Part shown: piece by piece, positions 7,525-37,550 of the stretch
Layout: every line of letters starts with the position of its first letter
Numbering within the stretch: position 1 is the stretch's first letter
Source of the DNA: a virus
DNA length: 41,687 bases
Strand: one strand, 5' to 3'
IMG/VR virus record: IMGVR_UViG_3300027805_000028
Location: 1-41,687 of that record
The notes under the pieces: model-generated
What the model saw: the letters and a program-made list of their open reading frames with translations, nothing else
What the model was told of the DNA's origin: nothing
The model's database searches: none
Translations under genes and position numbers: made by a program

Positions 7525-7611
7525 CGGAAAGCAATGGAATCGAACCATCCTCTGTTCATCACAGAGGGCCAAGCTTTCGAAACTTGTTACGCACCTTGCG
7601 TGCTGCTTTCC
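7525..7611 (-). tRNA. tRNA-Ser(CGA)
   Basis: Acceptor GGAAAGC/GCTTTCC, anticodon loop TTCGAAA (CGA), long variable arm, T-loop TTCGATT. CCA is not encoded (GCAGG follows). Its 5' 25 nt overlap the 3' end of the NADAR coding sequence. Confidence 0.9.
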
Positions 7612-8141
7612 CTAATCTTATCCCTGATCAGCATTAGCACCTGACCTAGCATGTTCTGCCCTTTGCCATCACAGACACCCCAGAACGTGTCGTTCCAGGT
7701 GTTGGTCTCCTCAAGATAGGCGCCGCCTGTTTCAAGCAGCCAGGTTCGCAGTGGTTCCTGCTGGAACTTCTGGAGGTTGACTTCATACATGACCTCGACC
7801 TTGATTTCATCCCAATCTGGTCGGGGTGGTCTGGACCTGCCAGCCTTCATCGCGTCGCGGGGATGATGGTAGCGAGCGATCTCAGCTCTGAATTCTGGAT
7901 CAAGGTGCTTAGCTGCCTGGTAGGCGTGCTCAGTGGTTCGATACTCCTCACCATTGCACTTCACCTTGGTGTAGTGAAAGTTGGAGAGCCATCGGTATGG
8001 TCCGAAGAAACCCTTGATCTCCGCTAGAGGTTTAGGTGCTAGCGAATGCTCAATGGCAATCAATGCATTGCGGGGGTCAAACTGGTCACTGCCATTGACT
8101 CGCCTGAGAAACTCATCCATCTTCGGATTTCTGTCTCTCAT
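7587..8141 (-). CDS. NADAR family (YbiA-like, DUF1768) ADP-ribose N-glycosidase
   Basis: 184 residues. Family hallmarks are present: FFGPYRWLSNF (~45-55), YRTTEHAYQAAK (~67-78), WDEIKVEVMYEVNLQKF (~110-126), ETNTWNDTFWGV and GxNMLGxxLM near the end. NADAR proteins cleave N-glycosidic bonds of ADP-ribosylated substrates, and some remove ADP-ribose from DNA guanine. In a phage this could reverse DNA or nucleotide ADP-ribosylation by host defences. It is coupled to the Cys-rich gene upstream by a 4-nt overlap. The last codons (…STQGA) lie inside tRNA-Ser(CGA). Confidence 0.88.
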   Translation of the reverse strand: MRDRNPKMDEFLRRVNGSDQFDPRNALIAIEHSLAPKPLAEIKGFFGPYRWLSNFHYTKVKCNGEEYRTTEHAYQAAKHLDPEFRAEIARYHHPRDAMKAGRSRPPRPDWDEIKVEVMYEVNLQKFQQEPLRTWLLETGGAYLEETNTWNDTFWGVCDGKGQNMLGQVLMLIRDKIRESSTQGA

Positions 8142-15558: not shown

Positions 15559-15634
15559 TGGTGCTGACTGTCGGATTCGAACTGACGACCTTCGCCTTAC
15601 AAGGGCGCTGCTCTACCAACTGAGCTAAGCCAGC
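15559..15634 (-). tRNA. tRNA-Thr(TGT)
   Basis: Acceptor GCTGGCT/AGTCAGC, A73, CCA encoded, loop CTTGTAA. Confidence 0.93.
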
Positions 15635-15639
15635 ATGTT

Positions 15640-15729
15640 TGGCGGGCAGGGTGGGATTCGAACCCACGGGGCCATTTCTGACCCGCTGGTTTTCAAGACC
15701 AGTCTATTAAACCGCTCTAGCACCTGCCC
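15640..15729 (-). tRNA. tRNA-Ser(TGA)
   Basis: Acceptor GGGCAGG/CCTGCCC, G73, CCA encoded, stem CTGGT/ACCAG with loop CTTGAAA, long variable arm. Confidence 0.93.
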
Positions 15730-15879
15730 ATTATTCTGCCGAGGCTTGCACTCGGACCATCGTCTTCACGACTTCGACCAGCGGTTCACTTACGCTACGC
15801 ACGGTGGCGTAAGGCTCTGTGTCGTGCTAGGAGACCAACGCTGTAGTGCCGTGCTGACCAGCGAGGTCTGTCAGTATTT

Positions 15880-15973
15880 TGGTGGACGCCGAGGGATTCC
15901 CACCCTCATTGGTGACTCCATGCTATTGAAGCCTTTCACACCGGCAGCAGGTTATCTCCCGTATGGTGCGTCC
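15880..15973 (-). tRNA. tRNA-like class II gene, T-loop TGGGAAT, isotype uncertain
   Basis: Acceptor GGACGC/GCGTCC, A73 and encoded CCA, a long variable hairpin CTTC/GGAG and T-stem GAGGG/CCCTC are clear. The T-loop lacks TTC, and the anticodon stem has only three pairs (GCC/GGC) around a 9-nt loop. Possibly decayed. Confidence 0.4.
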
Positions 15974-25149: not shown

Positions 25150-25225
25150 TGGTGGCCACGATGGGAATCGAACCCATGACACGGGAATTTAGAGTTCCCT
25201 GTTCTAACCACTGAACTACATGGCC
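25150..25225 (-). tRNA. Amber-suppressor tRNA, anticodon CTA
   Basis: Acceptor GGCCATG/CGTGGCC, A73, CCA encoded, D-arm TAGTTCAGTGGTTAGAAC, stem GGGAA/TTCCC with loop CTCTAAA (U33, anticodon CTA), T-loop TTCGATT. Every tRNA feature is canonical. The loop equals that of the classic su7-type Trp suppressor, but the amino acid cannot be deduced. It has its own -10 box 9 nt upstream. Confidence 0.92.
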
Positions 25226-26020: not shown

Positions 26021-26043
26021 GCATCTATTTACCTAAATCTAAA

Positions 26044-26068
26044 CGACTACGGCCCCGAAGGGCCGTAG
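26044..26068 (-). terminator. UUCG-capped terminator after the tmRNA
   Basis: Minus-strand CTACGGCCC-TTCG-GGGCCGTAG then TCGTTT. Confidence 0.8.
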
Positions 26069-26111
26069 GACTATTTGGTTACAAGGTGGTCAACCCCGTG
26101 CCGGCAGGTTC

Positions 26112-26144
26112 TTAAGCTGCGATGGCAAAACGCGAGTCGTTTGC
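26112..26144 (-). other. tmRNA tag frame, ANDSRFAIAA-stop
   Basis: Resume codon GCA through TAA. The ending FAIAA fits the ClpXP/ClpAP degron pattern (…LAA/…AA). Closest in form to betaproteobacterial tags such as ANDERFALAA. Confidence 0.9.
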
Positions 26145-26427
26145 GTTTGATTTATTTTCGCCGATTACGTCGGTCGACTCTCGTGTCGCGTATGATCATC
26201 TCCGCAGCCCAATCGAAACCTGGTCGGCCCCATTAGGGAAAGCACCGGTAGGTCTAGCGCGAGATTCGCATACACGGCTATCCTAATCCTGTATAGTGCG
26301 ACCTATACGTTTAGATGCTCTTCCTGGTGGAGCCGGGGGGAATCGAACCCCCGTCTTGAACTCTTCAAGTCACTCCGAATTACGACAATACCACAGAACT
26401 GCTGTGGCGCCAGTTTTATATTTACGG

Positions 26428-27966: not shown

Positions 27967-29373
27967 TTAAAACGAGGCGCGGGTCCGAACTTCGTCCAGC
28001 GTCGTCTTGTTGAAGATGGTGCCATTTACGTAGACAACTTGCATCACATCTTCAAACCCAGCATCTAGCCCCTTGCCAATGTCATAGGTACGAAACTCAC
28101 CAGTTAGTAGCGACTTAGCAAGCGACAGTCTGCCCTCCTTGCTGCGCTTACCAGGATCGGTGACAGGGTTCTTTGAGATACCAACCCATTGCCCATCAAC
28201 AAGAACTGCAGAAGCCTTTTGGGCAAACTTAAAGCTGTCCCTGTTTACCTTCTGGAGCAGAGCACCGCCACTTCCGAAGATCACGCAGTCGGCGCTGTAG
28301 CCCATCGCCATGATGTTGCCGAGCAGGGTCTTGATGGCCATGTGGTCGACGCCGTCGCCTTGGATGATACCAACGTTGTTGATCTTCTTATAGCCCTTGC
28401 TGGTGAGCGTCGTACCGAACGCGGCTTCCTGCATGCGCAGGATCTGCGGCACGATCTCCATCATGTCACCGCTGTCAGGACGGAAGACGATCTTGGCTTG
28501 ACTGGCGATGATCTCGTCCTTCAGCTCGGTGCACAGTAGCTTGGATGCACGGATCACATCATAGCCATCAATGACGATCGAGACGATACCACCTGGCTTG
28601 GCGAGGTTCTTGATCTGGTGACGCAGGTACTCAAGATCGCCACCGCCCTTTTCATCTCGCAGACTGAACGCGCACTGTACGCTGTGCTCGGTGGCAGGCA
28701 CTGAGAACGCGGCCATTGCCGACTTGTAGTAGAAGTTTGCAGCACGAACACCTTCGATGGTGTCGGAACCCATGAAGTTGACGAGGTGGGCAGCACCACC
28801 AATCTCGGCCTGCTCGGCGCAGGTGACGCCACGACCACCGAAGTCGTGCAGCGCGAAGGGCAGAAGACCCATATCGGCACCCGAGAGCTCATAGAAGCGC
28901 TTGATCTCACGCTTGATCTCGTAGTCCATCGAAGCGATTGTCGTCGGGTACCAGAAGCCGCGCTGCAGGGCGGTCTCGAGATAGCTCGACAGCCAGAAGA
29001 GGTCGGGATCAGTGCACTCGATGGTCACGAGGGCATTGCCACTGGGTACCGGCATGCCTTCAGGCACCGCGCGGATGGTGACGGGCAGGTAGCCGCCGTA
29101 CTGAGCGATGACCTTCTCCCAGCCAGCCCTGTTGAAGGGCTCACCGTGCGCCGCCGCAAATGCTTCAGCTTCGTCGATGTGTTCCATCGTGACCTTCTCG
29201 GTCAGGAACTTCTCGATAAACATCTGAAGGCCAAAGGGCACGATGATGTGCCGACCAGCCGTACGGGCTTCGATGTAGGAGTGCATGCCTACCACGTTGC
29301 TCGGGTACGAGAAGGCGTGGCTAAGCTTGTACGAATCCGACGCTAGGATGGGGGTGAAAGAAAGACGTGCCAT
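27967..29373 (-). CDS. nadV: Nicotinamide phosphoribosyltransferase (NadV/NAMPT)
   Basis: 468 residues, full length for the family. The ATG at 29373 has AAGGAG 8 nt upstream. Conserved segments: ASDSYKLSH (N-terminal), FALHDFGGRGV, VIDGYDV, IVFRPDSGD and IQGDGVD, which hold the PRPP and nicotinamide site. Converts nicotinamide and PRPP to NMN. With the NadM-Nudix gene in the same operon it can rebuild NAD from nicotinamide released by NADase defences (the NARP2-type pathway reported in phages). Confidence 0.95.
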   Translation of the reverse strand: MARLSFTPILASDSYKLSHAFSYPSNVVGMHSYIEARTAGRHIIVPFGLQMFIEKFLTEKVTMEHIDEAEAFAAAHGEPFNRAGWEKVIAQYGGYLPVTIRAVPEGMPVPSGNALVTIECTDPDLFWLSSYLETALQRGFWYPTTIASMDYEIKREIKRFYELSGADMGLLPFALHDFGGRGVTCAEQAEIGGAAHLVNFMGSDTIEGVRAANFYYKSAMAAFSVPATEHSVQCAFSLRDEKGGGDLEYLRHQIKNLAKPGGIVSIVIDGYDVIRASKLLCTELKDEIIASQAKIVFRPDSGDMMEIVPQILRMQEAAFGTTLTSKGYKKINNVGIIQGDGVDHMAIKTLLGNIMAMGYSADCVIFGSGGALLQKVNRDSFKFAQKASAVLVDGQWVGISKNPVTDPGKRSKEGRLSLAKSLLTGEFRTYDIGKGLDAGFEDVMQVVYVNGTIFNKTTLDEVRTRASF

Positions 29374-29386
29374 GATAAGCTCCTTG

Positions 29387-29593
29387 TCAATGGCTGGACT
29401 TGGCGTCTGTCGCCGTATCCGTTTTGGCACCAGTTGTGGTCGGTACCTTCACCCACAGGCTCCAATGAACAGAGGAGCCCGAATTGAAACTGTATCTGCA
29501 CTTACAGATGGGAGGATGTTTTGCGGCGACCATCATATGATTATAGAACTGATCGCTAATTTTTACTCCACACCCGTGATAGCACTCGTACAT
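29387..29593 (-). CDS. Small Cys-rich protein, 68 residues
   Basis: MYECYHGCGVKISDQFYNHM...CKCRYSF has CxxxC and CxC with histidines, a possible zinc knuckle. It fits between the 118-residue gene (10-nt gap) and nadV (14-nt gap). Ribosome site weak. No family recognised. Confidence 0.6.
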   Translation of the reverse strand: MYECYHGCGVKISDQFYNHMMVAAKHPPICKCRYSFNSGSSVHWSLWVKVPTTTGAKTDTATDAKSSH

Positions 29594-29960: not shown

Positions 29961-31106
29961 TTAGATGTCCTTGTAGGCAATGAGGGTTTCAAGAATTGCA
30001 TGGTGATCAGCGTACCACTTGTCAGTCATTTCAAGAGCGTCGCTGATGGGAACCCAAAACGCGTCAGCTGCATCGTCCATTCCCTTGACCTTCGGCAGCG
30101 GCTTCGTATCATCGAGCCGAATGAGGAAGGCGGTGGTGATGGTCCGACCACGAAGATCACGATCAGGCTTGTCGAACGTCTCGCTCTCGCGCACCGACCC
30201 GTTGAGGATCTGCTCAGTGAGCTCTTTTGCCTTCTTGCCTTCAGCCAGTCGGATGCCAGTCTCTTCAACCAGCTCTCGAATGGCGGCGGTTCGCAGCTTC
30301 TCGCTCTGGTTGACGAAGCCACCAGGCAGCGCCCAAAGTCCCCTACCAGGCTCTGCGCCACGCTTCACTACCAGCACGTGTCCAGATTGAACAACGACGC
30401 TGTCAACGGTAACGAAGGTCGGCGCGTAGGGGGCGTTCGCCCAGGAGGCCTTGTACTTCTTGAGGAACTCGTATTCGTAGACCAGCTCGGCGTATTCCTT
30501 CGTCTCGCTGAAGGCGTTCAGAAAGCGAAGGGTGCTGGCCGGCACCATCTTGTTCATTTTGCCCGCCGCCTCAAGGTCGTACTCCTTCGAGAAGAGCCAC
30601 TTACGGATCTCGGTAGCGCTGACGCTCAGGCTGCTGTCTTGAACGTACGGCTCAACAAGCGACTGCTTCCACTGTGGGAAGGCCTTCAGGTACCACGTGC
30701 TCTCGTCACGATCGGAACCAGTGATGTAGACCGTCGGCTTGTCGTCGAGGCTGAAGTTGTCCAGGATCTGGCGCTTGACGATGCGCTGCACCTGACGAAT
30801 CCAGAGAGCGTCGTTGTACGGGTAGTCTCGGATTGGCAGAATGCGAATGGCGCCAAATGCGCCGTCTTGGAGGCCTTGGCCTCCAATGACTTGGCCTCCA
30901 AGGACTTGGCTGCCCAACCACTTCTGGATCATGTCAGCCCTTTCATGGAACGTGAAGGGGTTCTTGAGGGAGCGGGCTTGACCGCTGCTACCTACGAGAA
31001 CAATCACCAGCTTGCTCGTCTCGAGAGCTTGCCGAAGAACGTGGGCGTGACCGTTGTGGAAGGGGCTGAACCGGCCGATGTAGACCGTAACGTCTTTAGA
31101 TGCCAT
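29961..31106 (-). CDS. nadM: Bifunctional NMN adenylyltransferase (NadM) - Nudix hydrolase
   Basis: 381 residues. Domain 1 (~1-190): nucleotidyltransferase GRFSPFHNGH with HxGH (17-20) and the SATEIRKWL motif (~163). Domain 2 (~225-370): Nudix box GGFVNQSEKLRTAAIREL-type with the REL-x-EE-x-G core at 276-284. NadM makes NAD from NMN; the Nudix half probably cleaves ADP-ribose. A glycine-glutamine repeat (LGGQVIGGQGLQ, ~69-80) is inserted in domain 1. GGAG precedes the ATG. Early and late promoter boxes lie upstream. Confidence 0.95.
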   Translation of the reverse strand: MASKDVTVYIGRFSPFHNGHAHVLRQALETSKLVIVLVGSSGQARSLKNPFTFHERADMIQKWLGSQVLGGQVIGGQGLQDGAFGAIRILPIRDYPYNDALWIRQVQRIVKRQILDNFSLDDKPTVYITGSDRDESTWYLKAFPQWKQSLVEPYVQDSSLSVSATEIRKWLFSKEYDLEAAGKMNKMVPASTLRFLNAFSETKEYAELVYEYEFLKKYKASWANAPYAPTFVTVDSVVVQSGHVLVVKRGAEPGRGLWALPGGFVNQSEKLRTAAIRELVEETGIRLAEGKKAKELTEQILNGSVRESETFDKPDRDLRGRTITTAFLIRLDDTKPLPKVKGMDDAADAFWVPISDALEMTDKWYADHHAILETLIAYKDI

Positions 31107-35689: not shown

Positions 35690-36367
35690 GTGAAGATCAT
35701 CTACCTGTACATTAAGACACACAGACAAACCGGATTGAAGTACTTTGGTAAAACGACGAAGGACCCATTCAAATACCATGGTTCCGGAAAGCGTTGGAAA
35801 GCGCACCTTAGGAAGCACGGCGCAGATGTAGAGACAGAGATCCTTGGAGCTTTTGATGACATTGAAGTTGCCAAGACTGCTGCTTTGAAGTTCTCGCGTG
35901 AGCACCGCATTGTTCATGATCCAGGGTGGGCTAATCTTATCGAGGAGAACGCACTTGACGGTGCACCTGTTGGGCACCCGGGACACAAATTTACTGACGA
36001 ACAACTGAAGAAGCTTTCTGCAGCAAGTAAGAAGAACTGGGAAGATCCTGCATTCAGAGAACGTCTTCAGCGAAGCCAGAGCGCAAGTTGGACTGATGAG
36101 CGGCGTGCCGCTCATCAGCGATGGCTTGAAGAGCATTGGACTGATGAGCGGCGCAAACATCAGCGCATGAAGTTAAAAGGAAGGGCCAACCCACTAGTCG
36201 GAAGACCTGGTGTCCCAAAGTCCCCCACACATGCCGCAGCCATAGCGTCTGCGCTCAGAGGAATACCAAAGGTTCGATGCTGTCGCATAGAAGACAAACG
36301 CGAAATGTCAGTTGGTGAGTTCACGAAATGGCTCAATCGCGTTCGGCCATCAGATACTTCTGGCTGA
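35690..36367 (+). CDS. GIY-YIG homing endonuclease, only plus-strand gene
   Basis: 225 residues if read from GTG at 35690. GIY-YIG core IYLYIKTHRQTGLKYFGKT with YHGSGKRW, a conserved arginine/glutamate region and HPGHKFTDEQLKKLS plus repeated WTDERR modules (NUMOD-like) for DNA binding. AGGAGG overlaps the GTG but is ideally spaced (5 nt) before ATC at 35696, so the start is unusual. Its 3' end overlaps the RNA ligase gene tail-to-tail by 35 nt. It looks like a mobile insertion against the local strand. Confidence 0.85.
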   Translation: MKIIYLYIKTHRQTGLKYFGKTTKDPFKYHGSGKRWKAHLRKHGADVETEILGAFDDIEVAKTAALKFSREHRIVHDPGWANLIEENALDGAPVGHPGHKFTDEQLKKLSAASKKNWEDPAFRERLQRSQSASWTDERRAAHQRWLEEHWTDERRKHQRMKLKGRANPLVGRPGVPKSPTHAAAIASALRGIPKVRCCRIEDKREMSVGEFTKWLNRVRPSDTSG

Positions 36368-37550
36368 TGGCCTTGAAGCTGAACTGGCCGTCTACCCGCT
36401 TGAAGACTAGACCCTCACGAACTTGGTGCGCCAAGCTCGGGCCCTCAGCGAATGCCAGCAGCTCCTTGGCGTTGGTGATGCCAAGCTCGTCGAGCGTTAC
36501 GTTGTCATGCAGCACTGGCACGTGCTTGACCAGGTAAGGATTCACACCATTGCTGTACAGAAAAAACATGAACTCGGCTCGCTGCGCCGGTGTCATGTAT
36601 GTCTGCTTGTCGATGTTCTGTACGTCAAAAATGAACAGTTGGTGGACCTTCAGATTCTCACGGTTGCCTTGAATGCCAGGACCCATCAGCTCACCCTGCA
36701 CCGCGAAGTTACCTTCACTGTTGCGAGCAATCTGCTCGAGAGCACCAAGCAGGCCGCTTTGAAGCGCCACCTTGACGAACGTGTTGTCGGCGTTGGCCCC
36801 GTTGACCTTGAGCTGCAGGTTGCGGCTGCATACCCCTGTCTCCACCTCGTTGATGCCGGCTCGCGCGAAGACGGTGCAGCTGCTGCCGTCCATCTTTAGG
36901 GTTACCTCGTAGCGAGCGTTGCGGTCGGCCTTGGCACGCTGCACCTTGACCCATCCAGAGGTAGGCACAAACTTAATGACACCATTCCGCTCAAGCTGAT
37001 CAATTACGCTCTGCTGCATCCCGGTAACATCAAACTCTACGAGCATTTCATCGTAACTGAAGATTTCCTGCACCAGGTTCTGGCAGCGCTCCTGATCCGT
37101 CCGACGGATGAAGCTCGGGAAGAGGCCTTCCGCTTGGCCAGCCAGCTCAGCGGGAAGGGGCTGTTCCCACTTGACGATGTCGAGAGCCGCAGCGATGTCG
37201 TACTCAGGGTCGGCCTTGGCACCGTCGCGCACGACCGGGAAGGCATCGAGTGGCAGAACAAACCCCTGGCTAATTTGGCCGCGAAGCCTGACAGTGCGAA
37301 GGCGGTGTCCGCGAACTCCATTAAATTCCCGACCCTGCTTGTCGACCAGAAACTGCCAGGCAGGAACTCCTTCCGGCAGAAAGCTGTCAATCTCAAAGTA
37401 GAAGACCTCGTCCCCAGGGACAAACTCTCCACGCTTGACTACGACAGTCCATCCACCGATAACGGCGCACTCGATAGCATCAGCCCCAGCGATAGGCTGA
37501 ATGGAGTCAATGGTTCGAATGGTAACAAGCTTACGATTGATGGTGCTCAT
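36333..37550 (-). CDS. Rnl2-like RNA ligase with N-terminal OB domain
   Basis: 405 residues. N-terminal OB-like region (SIQPIAGADAIECAVIGGW...RGHRLRTVRLRGQISQGFVLP by position ~15-100), then the ligase core: motif I VTLKMDGSS with the AMP-accepting lysine K219, motif IV REGLVFKR and motif V SFKAISQKYL. The domain order matches the DraRnl/Rnl5 type that seals nicks with a 3'-OH RNA end. Probably repairs tRNAs cut by host anticodon nucleases. Extended -10 promoter 25 nt upstream. Confidence 0.88.
   Translation of the reverse strand: MSTINRKLVTIRTIDSIQPIAGADAIECAVIGGWTVVVKRGEFVPGDEVFYFEIDSFLPEGVPAWQFLVDKQGREFNGVRGHRLRTVRLRGQISQGFVLPLDAFPVVRDGAKADPEYDIAAALDIVKWEQPLPAELAGQAEGLFPSFIRRTDQERCQNLVQEIFSYDEMLVEFDVTGMQQSVIDQLERNGVIKFVPTSGWVKVQRAKADRNARYEVTLKMDGSSCTVFARAGINEVETGVCSRNLQLKVNGANADNTFVKVALQSGLLGALEQIARNSEGNFAVQGELMGPGIQGNRENLKVHQLFIFDVQNIDKQTYMTPAQRAEFMFFLYSNGVNPYLVKHVPVLHDNVTLDELGITNAKELLAFAEGPSLAHQVREGLVFKRVDGQFSFKAISQKYLMAERD

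Follow-up and report, generated by a model that had tools for sequence, protein, structure and literature searches.

A circularly permuted tmRNA gene of the beta type in a tailed-phage genome fragment, with a comparison of viral copies

We describe a complete, circularly permuted tmRNA (ssrA) gene on the minus strand (26407-26044) of a 41,687-bp virus fragment from IMG/VR, the whole of which we call the window. The gene is very probably best explained as specifying a functional-looking, phage-encoded, two-piece tmRNA of the beta type, which would act by the mechanism proposed below. Two-piece tmRNAs of phages are an already known, little-studied kind, to which the window adds a well-formed beta-type case. 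The value of the analysis lies mostly in the comparison across copies and less in the single gene of the window; what is new is a shared covarying stem with a URAU leader, the distribution of the GGTTTCGATTGG motif, an HNH insert in the related phage G002 and a class of tags of 28-31 aa.

ARAGORN reports a permuted tmRNA (tmRNA*) at 26021-26417 on the minus strand and reads its tag as ANDSRFAIAA. With Rfam cmscan, beta_tmRNA (RF01850) matches over the full model at 26433-26044 with 144.3 bits (gathering score 84, E 2.5e-44), and tmRNA_permuted (RF04321) matches at 26387-26112 with 126 bits (gathering score 47, E 2.1e-24), both far beyond chance. The layout is permuted, with the T-arm/CCA piece upstream of the piece carrying the 5' acceptor strand and the tag, on the same strand, and the whole precursor folds with a z of -3.7 against shuffles. 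A sequence-only reading of this DNA had already proposed a circularly permuted phage tmRNA here, an identity now borne out by two covariance models, by ARAGORN and by the boundaries named for the two pieces (26325 and 26231), which are the CCA end and G1, respectively, as read from the sequence; homologues add compensatory changes in the acceptor stem. The acceptor strands that it had paired across a G3-U70 wobble match at seven of seven positions (GGGGCCG/CGGCUCC), and the clean frame that it had described, ANDSRFAIAA followed by a stop, is recovered by ARAGORN at 26144-26112. Both kinds of search that it had proposed, ARAGORN and the permuted covariance models, detect the gene, RF01850 and RF04321 above their gathering scores. 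The observation holds in all particulars that it gave. Its coordinates came with no strand, and the novelty that it implied does not stand, as two-piece tmRNAs of phages have been in print since 2022 (PMC9004378) and IMG/VR contains many more. As judged from its sequence, the gene is real and well formed and is probably functional (Table 1).

Table 1. Features of the permuted tmRNA gene, its neighbours in the window and the insert in a related phage
Feature	Position	Strand	Evidence or remark
Whole permuted tmRNA (ssrA) gene	26044..26407	-	ARAGORN, RF01850, RF04321, fold z -3.7
5' leader hairpin CCACAG-CAGUU-CUGUGG, directly upstream of acceptor piece	26391..26407	-	Sequence and fold; putative function
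Acceptor piece	26325..26390	-	CM alignment, coordinates
5' strand of long P2 helix	within 26325..26390 (acceptor piece)	-	CM alignment
T-arm	26352-26336	-	CM alignment, coordinates
3' acceptor strand CGGCUCC	26335-26329	-	CM alignment, coordinates
A, then encoded CCA	CCA 26327-26325	-	CM alignment, coordinates
Intervening segment, 93 nt, predicted to be removed in processing	26232..26324	-	Fold, covariation
Closing stem of intervening segment, GGAAGAGCAU/GGUGCUUUCC; 4-nt leader UAAU preceding G1		-	Fold
mRNA-like (coding) piece	26044..26231	-	CM alignment, coordinates; predicted mature 3' end
5' acceptor strand GGGGCCG, start of coding piece	26231-26225	-	CM alignment, coordinates
Tag frame ANDSRFAIAA and UAA stop	26112..26144	-	ARAGORN, coordinates
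3' terminal hairpin CUACGGCCCUUCGGGGCCGUAG	26047..26068	-	CM alignment, fold
NADAR, NAMPT, NMN adenylyltransferase-Nudix	7587-8141, 27967-29430, 29961-31106	-	Phage NAD+ rebuilding set
RNA ligase	36333-37550		
tRNA with CUA anticodon (amber suppressor type)	25150-25225	-	
HNH gene in G002	L226:2218-1629 (G002:C1, about 45.1-46.0 kb)		

The tag opens on a GCA resume codon (Ala), has a hydrophobic end in AA before its UAA stop, and differs from the common beta tag ANDERFALAA only conservatively. The alanine identity pair G3-U70 lies within the 7-bp acceptor stem. When the two mature pieces were folded together as unconstrained strands, the full acceptor stem formed, and the interaction energy of -3.4 kcal/mol, against -5.0 +/- 2.2 for shuffled partners, indicates no extra affinity and is uninformative as proof of a complex; P2 pairing is mostly visible through the CM alignment only. 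A promoter scan found no sigma-70-like promoter above shuffles, and expression therefore probably depends on an upstream phage promoter.

The window is a fragment of a tailed-phage genome. Neighbouring genes match PHROGs and Pfam families for nicotinamide phosphoribosyltransferase (NAMPT), NMN adenylyltransferase-Nudix, NADAR, RNA ligase, a virion structural protein and an HNH endonuclease; the first five identify phage DNA with a set of genes for translation, RNA and NAD maintenance. ARAGORN finds 29 canonical tRNAs and one with a CUA anticodon. TAG terminates only three of the 39 genes of the window, and in each of these a further stop follows 5-10 codons on. Relatives of the NAMPT in phage isolates all share less than 60% identity with it, which places the phage far from cultured ones, and a near-identity search of the window among phage isolates gave no match. 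The beta type of the tmRNA hints at a betaproteobacterial host.

Permuted tmRNAs were found in well over a hundred IMG/VR viral contigs, sampled by a tag-pattern scan and a gene-layout scan. A parser that demanded a T-arm and acceptor pairing retained 182 permuted loci, overlapping copies of one gene being counted. Position 3-70 is G-U in all 182 and in all 68 non-redundant viral copies; the parser contained nothing singling out this pair, part of the sample came from a pattern fixing CTCCACCA and GGGG and is thus biased towards the usual acceptor, and the tag-pattern set carries no such bias. Compensatory changes occur among the 68 copies at pairs 2-71, 4-69, 5-68 and 6-67. Among Burkholderiales genomes, only 9 of 250 had a permuted gene above the cut-off. 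Two phage copies (L132 and L136) have tags that end in ANA (ANDSHFLQAANA and ANDSSFLMTANA) rather than AA.

What the phage copies have in common is a covarying 10-bp stem and a URAU leader, which flank an intervening segment of usually greater length. Pairing at the first ten positions of the closing stem stands at 93% across the 68 non-redundant viral copies, compared with 62% +/- 1.4% if each sequence is given its partner from another and 33-57% if the register is slid; in the window, nine of the ten pairs form around a segment of 93 nt. The four bases preceding G1 are UGAU or UAAU in 62 of the 68. In the viral tag-pattern set, where length was unrestricted, most segments measure 58-181 nt and a few 20-39 nt, whereas the six Burkholderiales copies parsed have 24-33 nt. 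UGAU also ends three of these six bacterial segments, so the architecture is common to both and the phage versions are mainly longer. Stem and leader are consistent with a processing signature, in which cleavage by RNase P before G1 would be expected by analogy with tRNAs.

In G002, a relative of the window phage, the intervening segment is filled by an HNH endonuclease gene of 195 codons (phrog_2255, E 9.4e-26), which begins 3 nt past the CCA, leaves the closing stem intact and occupies the segment that normal processing removes. The alternative that the G002 tmRNA has no coding piece, suggested by a 129-bp partial match, was rejected, as its halves lie a 589-nt insert apart and the tag frame is intact. 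No second relative of this HNH protein was found in IMG/VR; a homing endonuclease as a general feature of the intervening segment was also rejected, G002 being a single case. The accessible part of the tmRNA database paper mentions endonuclease genes for tmRNA T-loop introns only (PMC11915505). In three other contigs (L143, L146 and L171), the 5' part of the coding piece of the tmRNA is followed by an inserted gene for a GIY-YIG homing endonuclease, and downstream of this gene lies a second, altered tmRNA-like stretch of T-arm, acceptor and tag (ANDELFALAA).

A further group of 33 viral contigs in IMG/VR (L282-L310, L145, L168, L198 and L210) has permuted tmRNAs with tags of 28-31 aa, the usual tag for comparison being the 10-aa ANDxxxALAA. 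The long tags share a core, GEVTVS(A)[GS]KG[VI][KR]FSAR, and end in LAV or FAV; their codons vary synonymously. Neither the 399 genomes searched in the order nor the phage isolates contained a match to the motif, and its interpretation as a homologue of a phage protein was rejected, since isolates and order gave no match and all 33 viral matches are tmRNA-like. The long tag is possibly a non-degron tag or one with a new function.

Does the gene of the window belong to phages or to a host? Its nearest relatives are viral copies, a jumbo contig (L200, 69% identity) and then G002. In a tree of 80 copies it joins L200, G002 and the phages Axy11 and CcrPW (98/98 for this 5-row set), and the group stands beside the bacterial one, not within it; given long branches and a sample with few permuted copies from bacteria, this grouping is suggestive only. 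The 5' motif GGGGNNGA..GGTTTCGATTGG is present in 22 viral contigs and, by a pattern search run without a positive control, in none of the 369 genomes searched from the bacterial class. We put forward tentatively, at somewhat less than even confidence, that phages maintain a tmRNA lineage separate from bacterial ssrA and passed on among large phages, which has a precursor architecture of its own and phage-chosen tags. Its architecture would be the long intervening segment, the covarying stem, the URAU leader and the GGTTTCGATTGG start, and its use would be ribosome rescue with tags chosen by the phage, in other lineages even of 28-31 aa, in place of borrowing from the host. On the opposing view, a host ssrA was captured recently, or an integration site left a remnant, and the gene is useless to the phage. 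Integration of phages into ssrA is common. Such integration is also discussed in PMC9004378. The tag of the window is similar to those of betaproteobacteria, and the best-matching family is beta_tmRNA. However, a prophage attachment-site remnant would be a partial 3' ssrA beside an integrase, while the gene here is complete and internal and the ORFs scanned include no integrase; the closeness to other viral copies, the distribution of GGTTTCGATTGG and a precursor stem kept under covariation also speak against capture, which we consider improbable.

The sequence-only reading had seen no smpB, and a search for SmpB was indeed negative in the window, in G001-G003 and in the complete phages CcrPW and Axy11, the same search being positive in 10 of 14 control genomes. 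The RNA, if it works, must use the SmpB of the host. For the phage-encoded two-piece tmRNA that we favour, we infer processing, charging, SmpB use and benefit to the phage along the following lines. The operon transcript would fold so that the 7-bp acceptor stem, the UAAU leader and the 10-bp stem of the intervening segment stack; RNase P would cut in front of G1 (26231), and the machinery that processes tRNA 3' ends would free the encoded CCA (26325). The two products, an acceptor piece and a coding piece, would stay together through the acceptor stem and the P2 helix. The RNA would be charged by host AlaRS via G3-U70, and with host SmpB it would enter ribosomes stalled on broken phage or host mRNAs, add ANDSRFAIAA and recycle the ribosome, the product passing to host proteases of the ClpXP type. 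The phage may thereby gain its own control of ribosome rescue while host mRNA is degraded or cleaved. The sequence-only reading had envisaged that the RNA may rescue ribosomes on cleaved mRNAs or change the tag, and such a role would be plausible. It could also be argued that the RNA is a decoy that would titrate host SmpB or AlaRS and thereby inhibit trans-translation in the host. An action of this kind has been proposed for the form of mycobacteriophage DS6A that has only a tRNA-like domain (PMC4131195, PMC11915505), and the phage fragment with no SmpB of its own would suit such a decoy. In the window, though, the tag frame, the stop codon and the mRNA-like domain are intact, whereas DS6A, as described there, keeps little beyond the tRNA-like domain, and we give the decoy very little credence.

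If the phage copies work in infection, they would show phages taking over ribosome rescue and protein tagging. The comparison yields testable points: a conserved stem and leader in the precursor, from which the cleavage sites can be predicted; reliance on the SmpB of the host; and a subgroup specific to phages.

Among known systems, one of the closest precedents is that of Melnitz, a phage of OM43, described in a study in which 53 of 133 unique phage tmRNA structures were two-piece, 50 of them aquatic (PMC9004378). The tmRNA database of 2025 counts 79 phage sequences and 11,946 permuted ones (PMC11915505). Melnitz and the other aquatic phages (PMC9004378) resemble the window in that the tmRNA is phage-encoded and circularly permuted, has a complete tag frame and presumably relies on the SmpB of the host. 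The Melnitz copy, however, clusters with the ssrA of alphaproteobacteria and is joined to a glutamine riboswitch (PMC9004378), whereas that of the window fits the beta model, and in the cmscan of the window no riboswitch family reached its gathering score.

The bacterial ssrA of Burkholderiales (RF01850/RF04321) shares with the window the gene order, the acceptor and T-arm, G3-U70, a tag of the ANDxRFAxAA kind and the terminal hairpin. It differs in its shorter intervening segment, given above, in the 5' piece, which reads TTTCGACAGGG in these bacteria and TTTCGATTGGG in the window, and in the encoded 3' end, which is a full CCA in the window and CCC or CCT in the three top-scoring bacterial copies. 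The Caulobacter phage CcrPW and the Achromobacter phage Axy11 have permuted tmRNA genes that are unannotated in their complete records (L003, CcrPW 140753-141047; L004, Axy11 15628-15917). Like the window, they have the GGGGCCG/CGGCUCC acceptor and the TTTCGATTGG motif and, as complete genomes, are without SmpB; unlike it, they have the tags VNDNDAPVMEQRLAA and ANDDYIRVAA, and their branches in the tree are long. The Streptomyces phage Faust has its tmRNA inside a tRNA array, much as the window has phage tRNAs, but in the standard gene order. In the Bxz1 group of mycobacteriophages the tmRNA is a one-piece molecule. Published lists of phage tmRNAs include those of mycobacteriophages, Bxz1 among them, and that of Bacillus phage G, and the ssrA of the Bxz1 group is, like that of the window, phage-encoded (PMC4131195).
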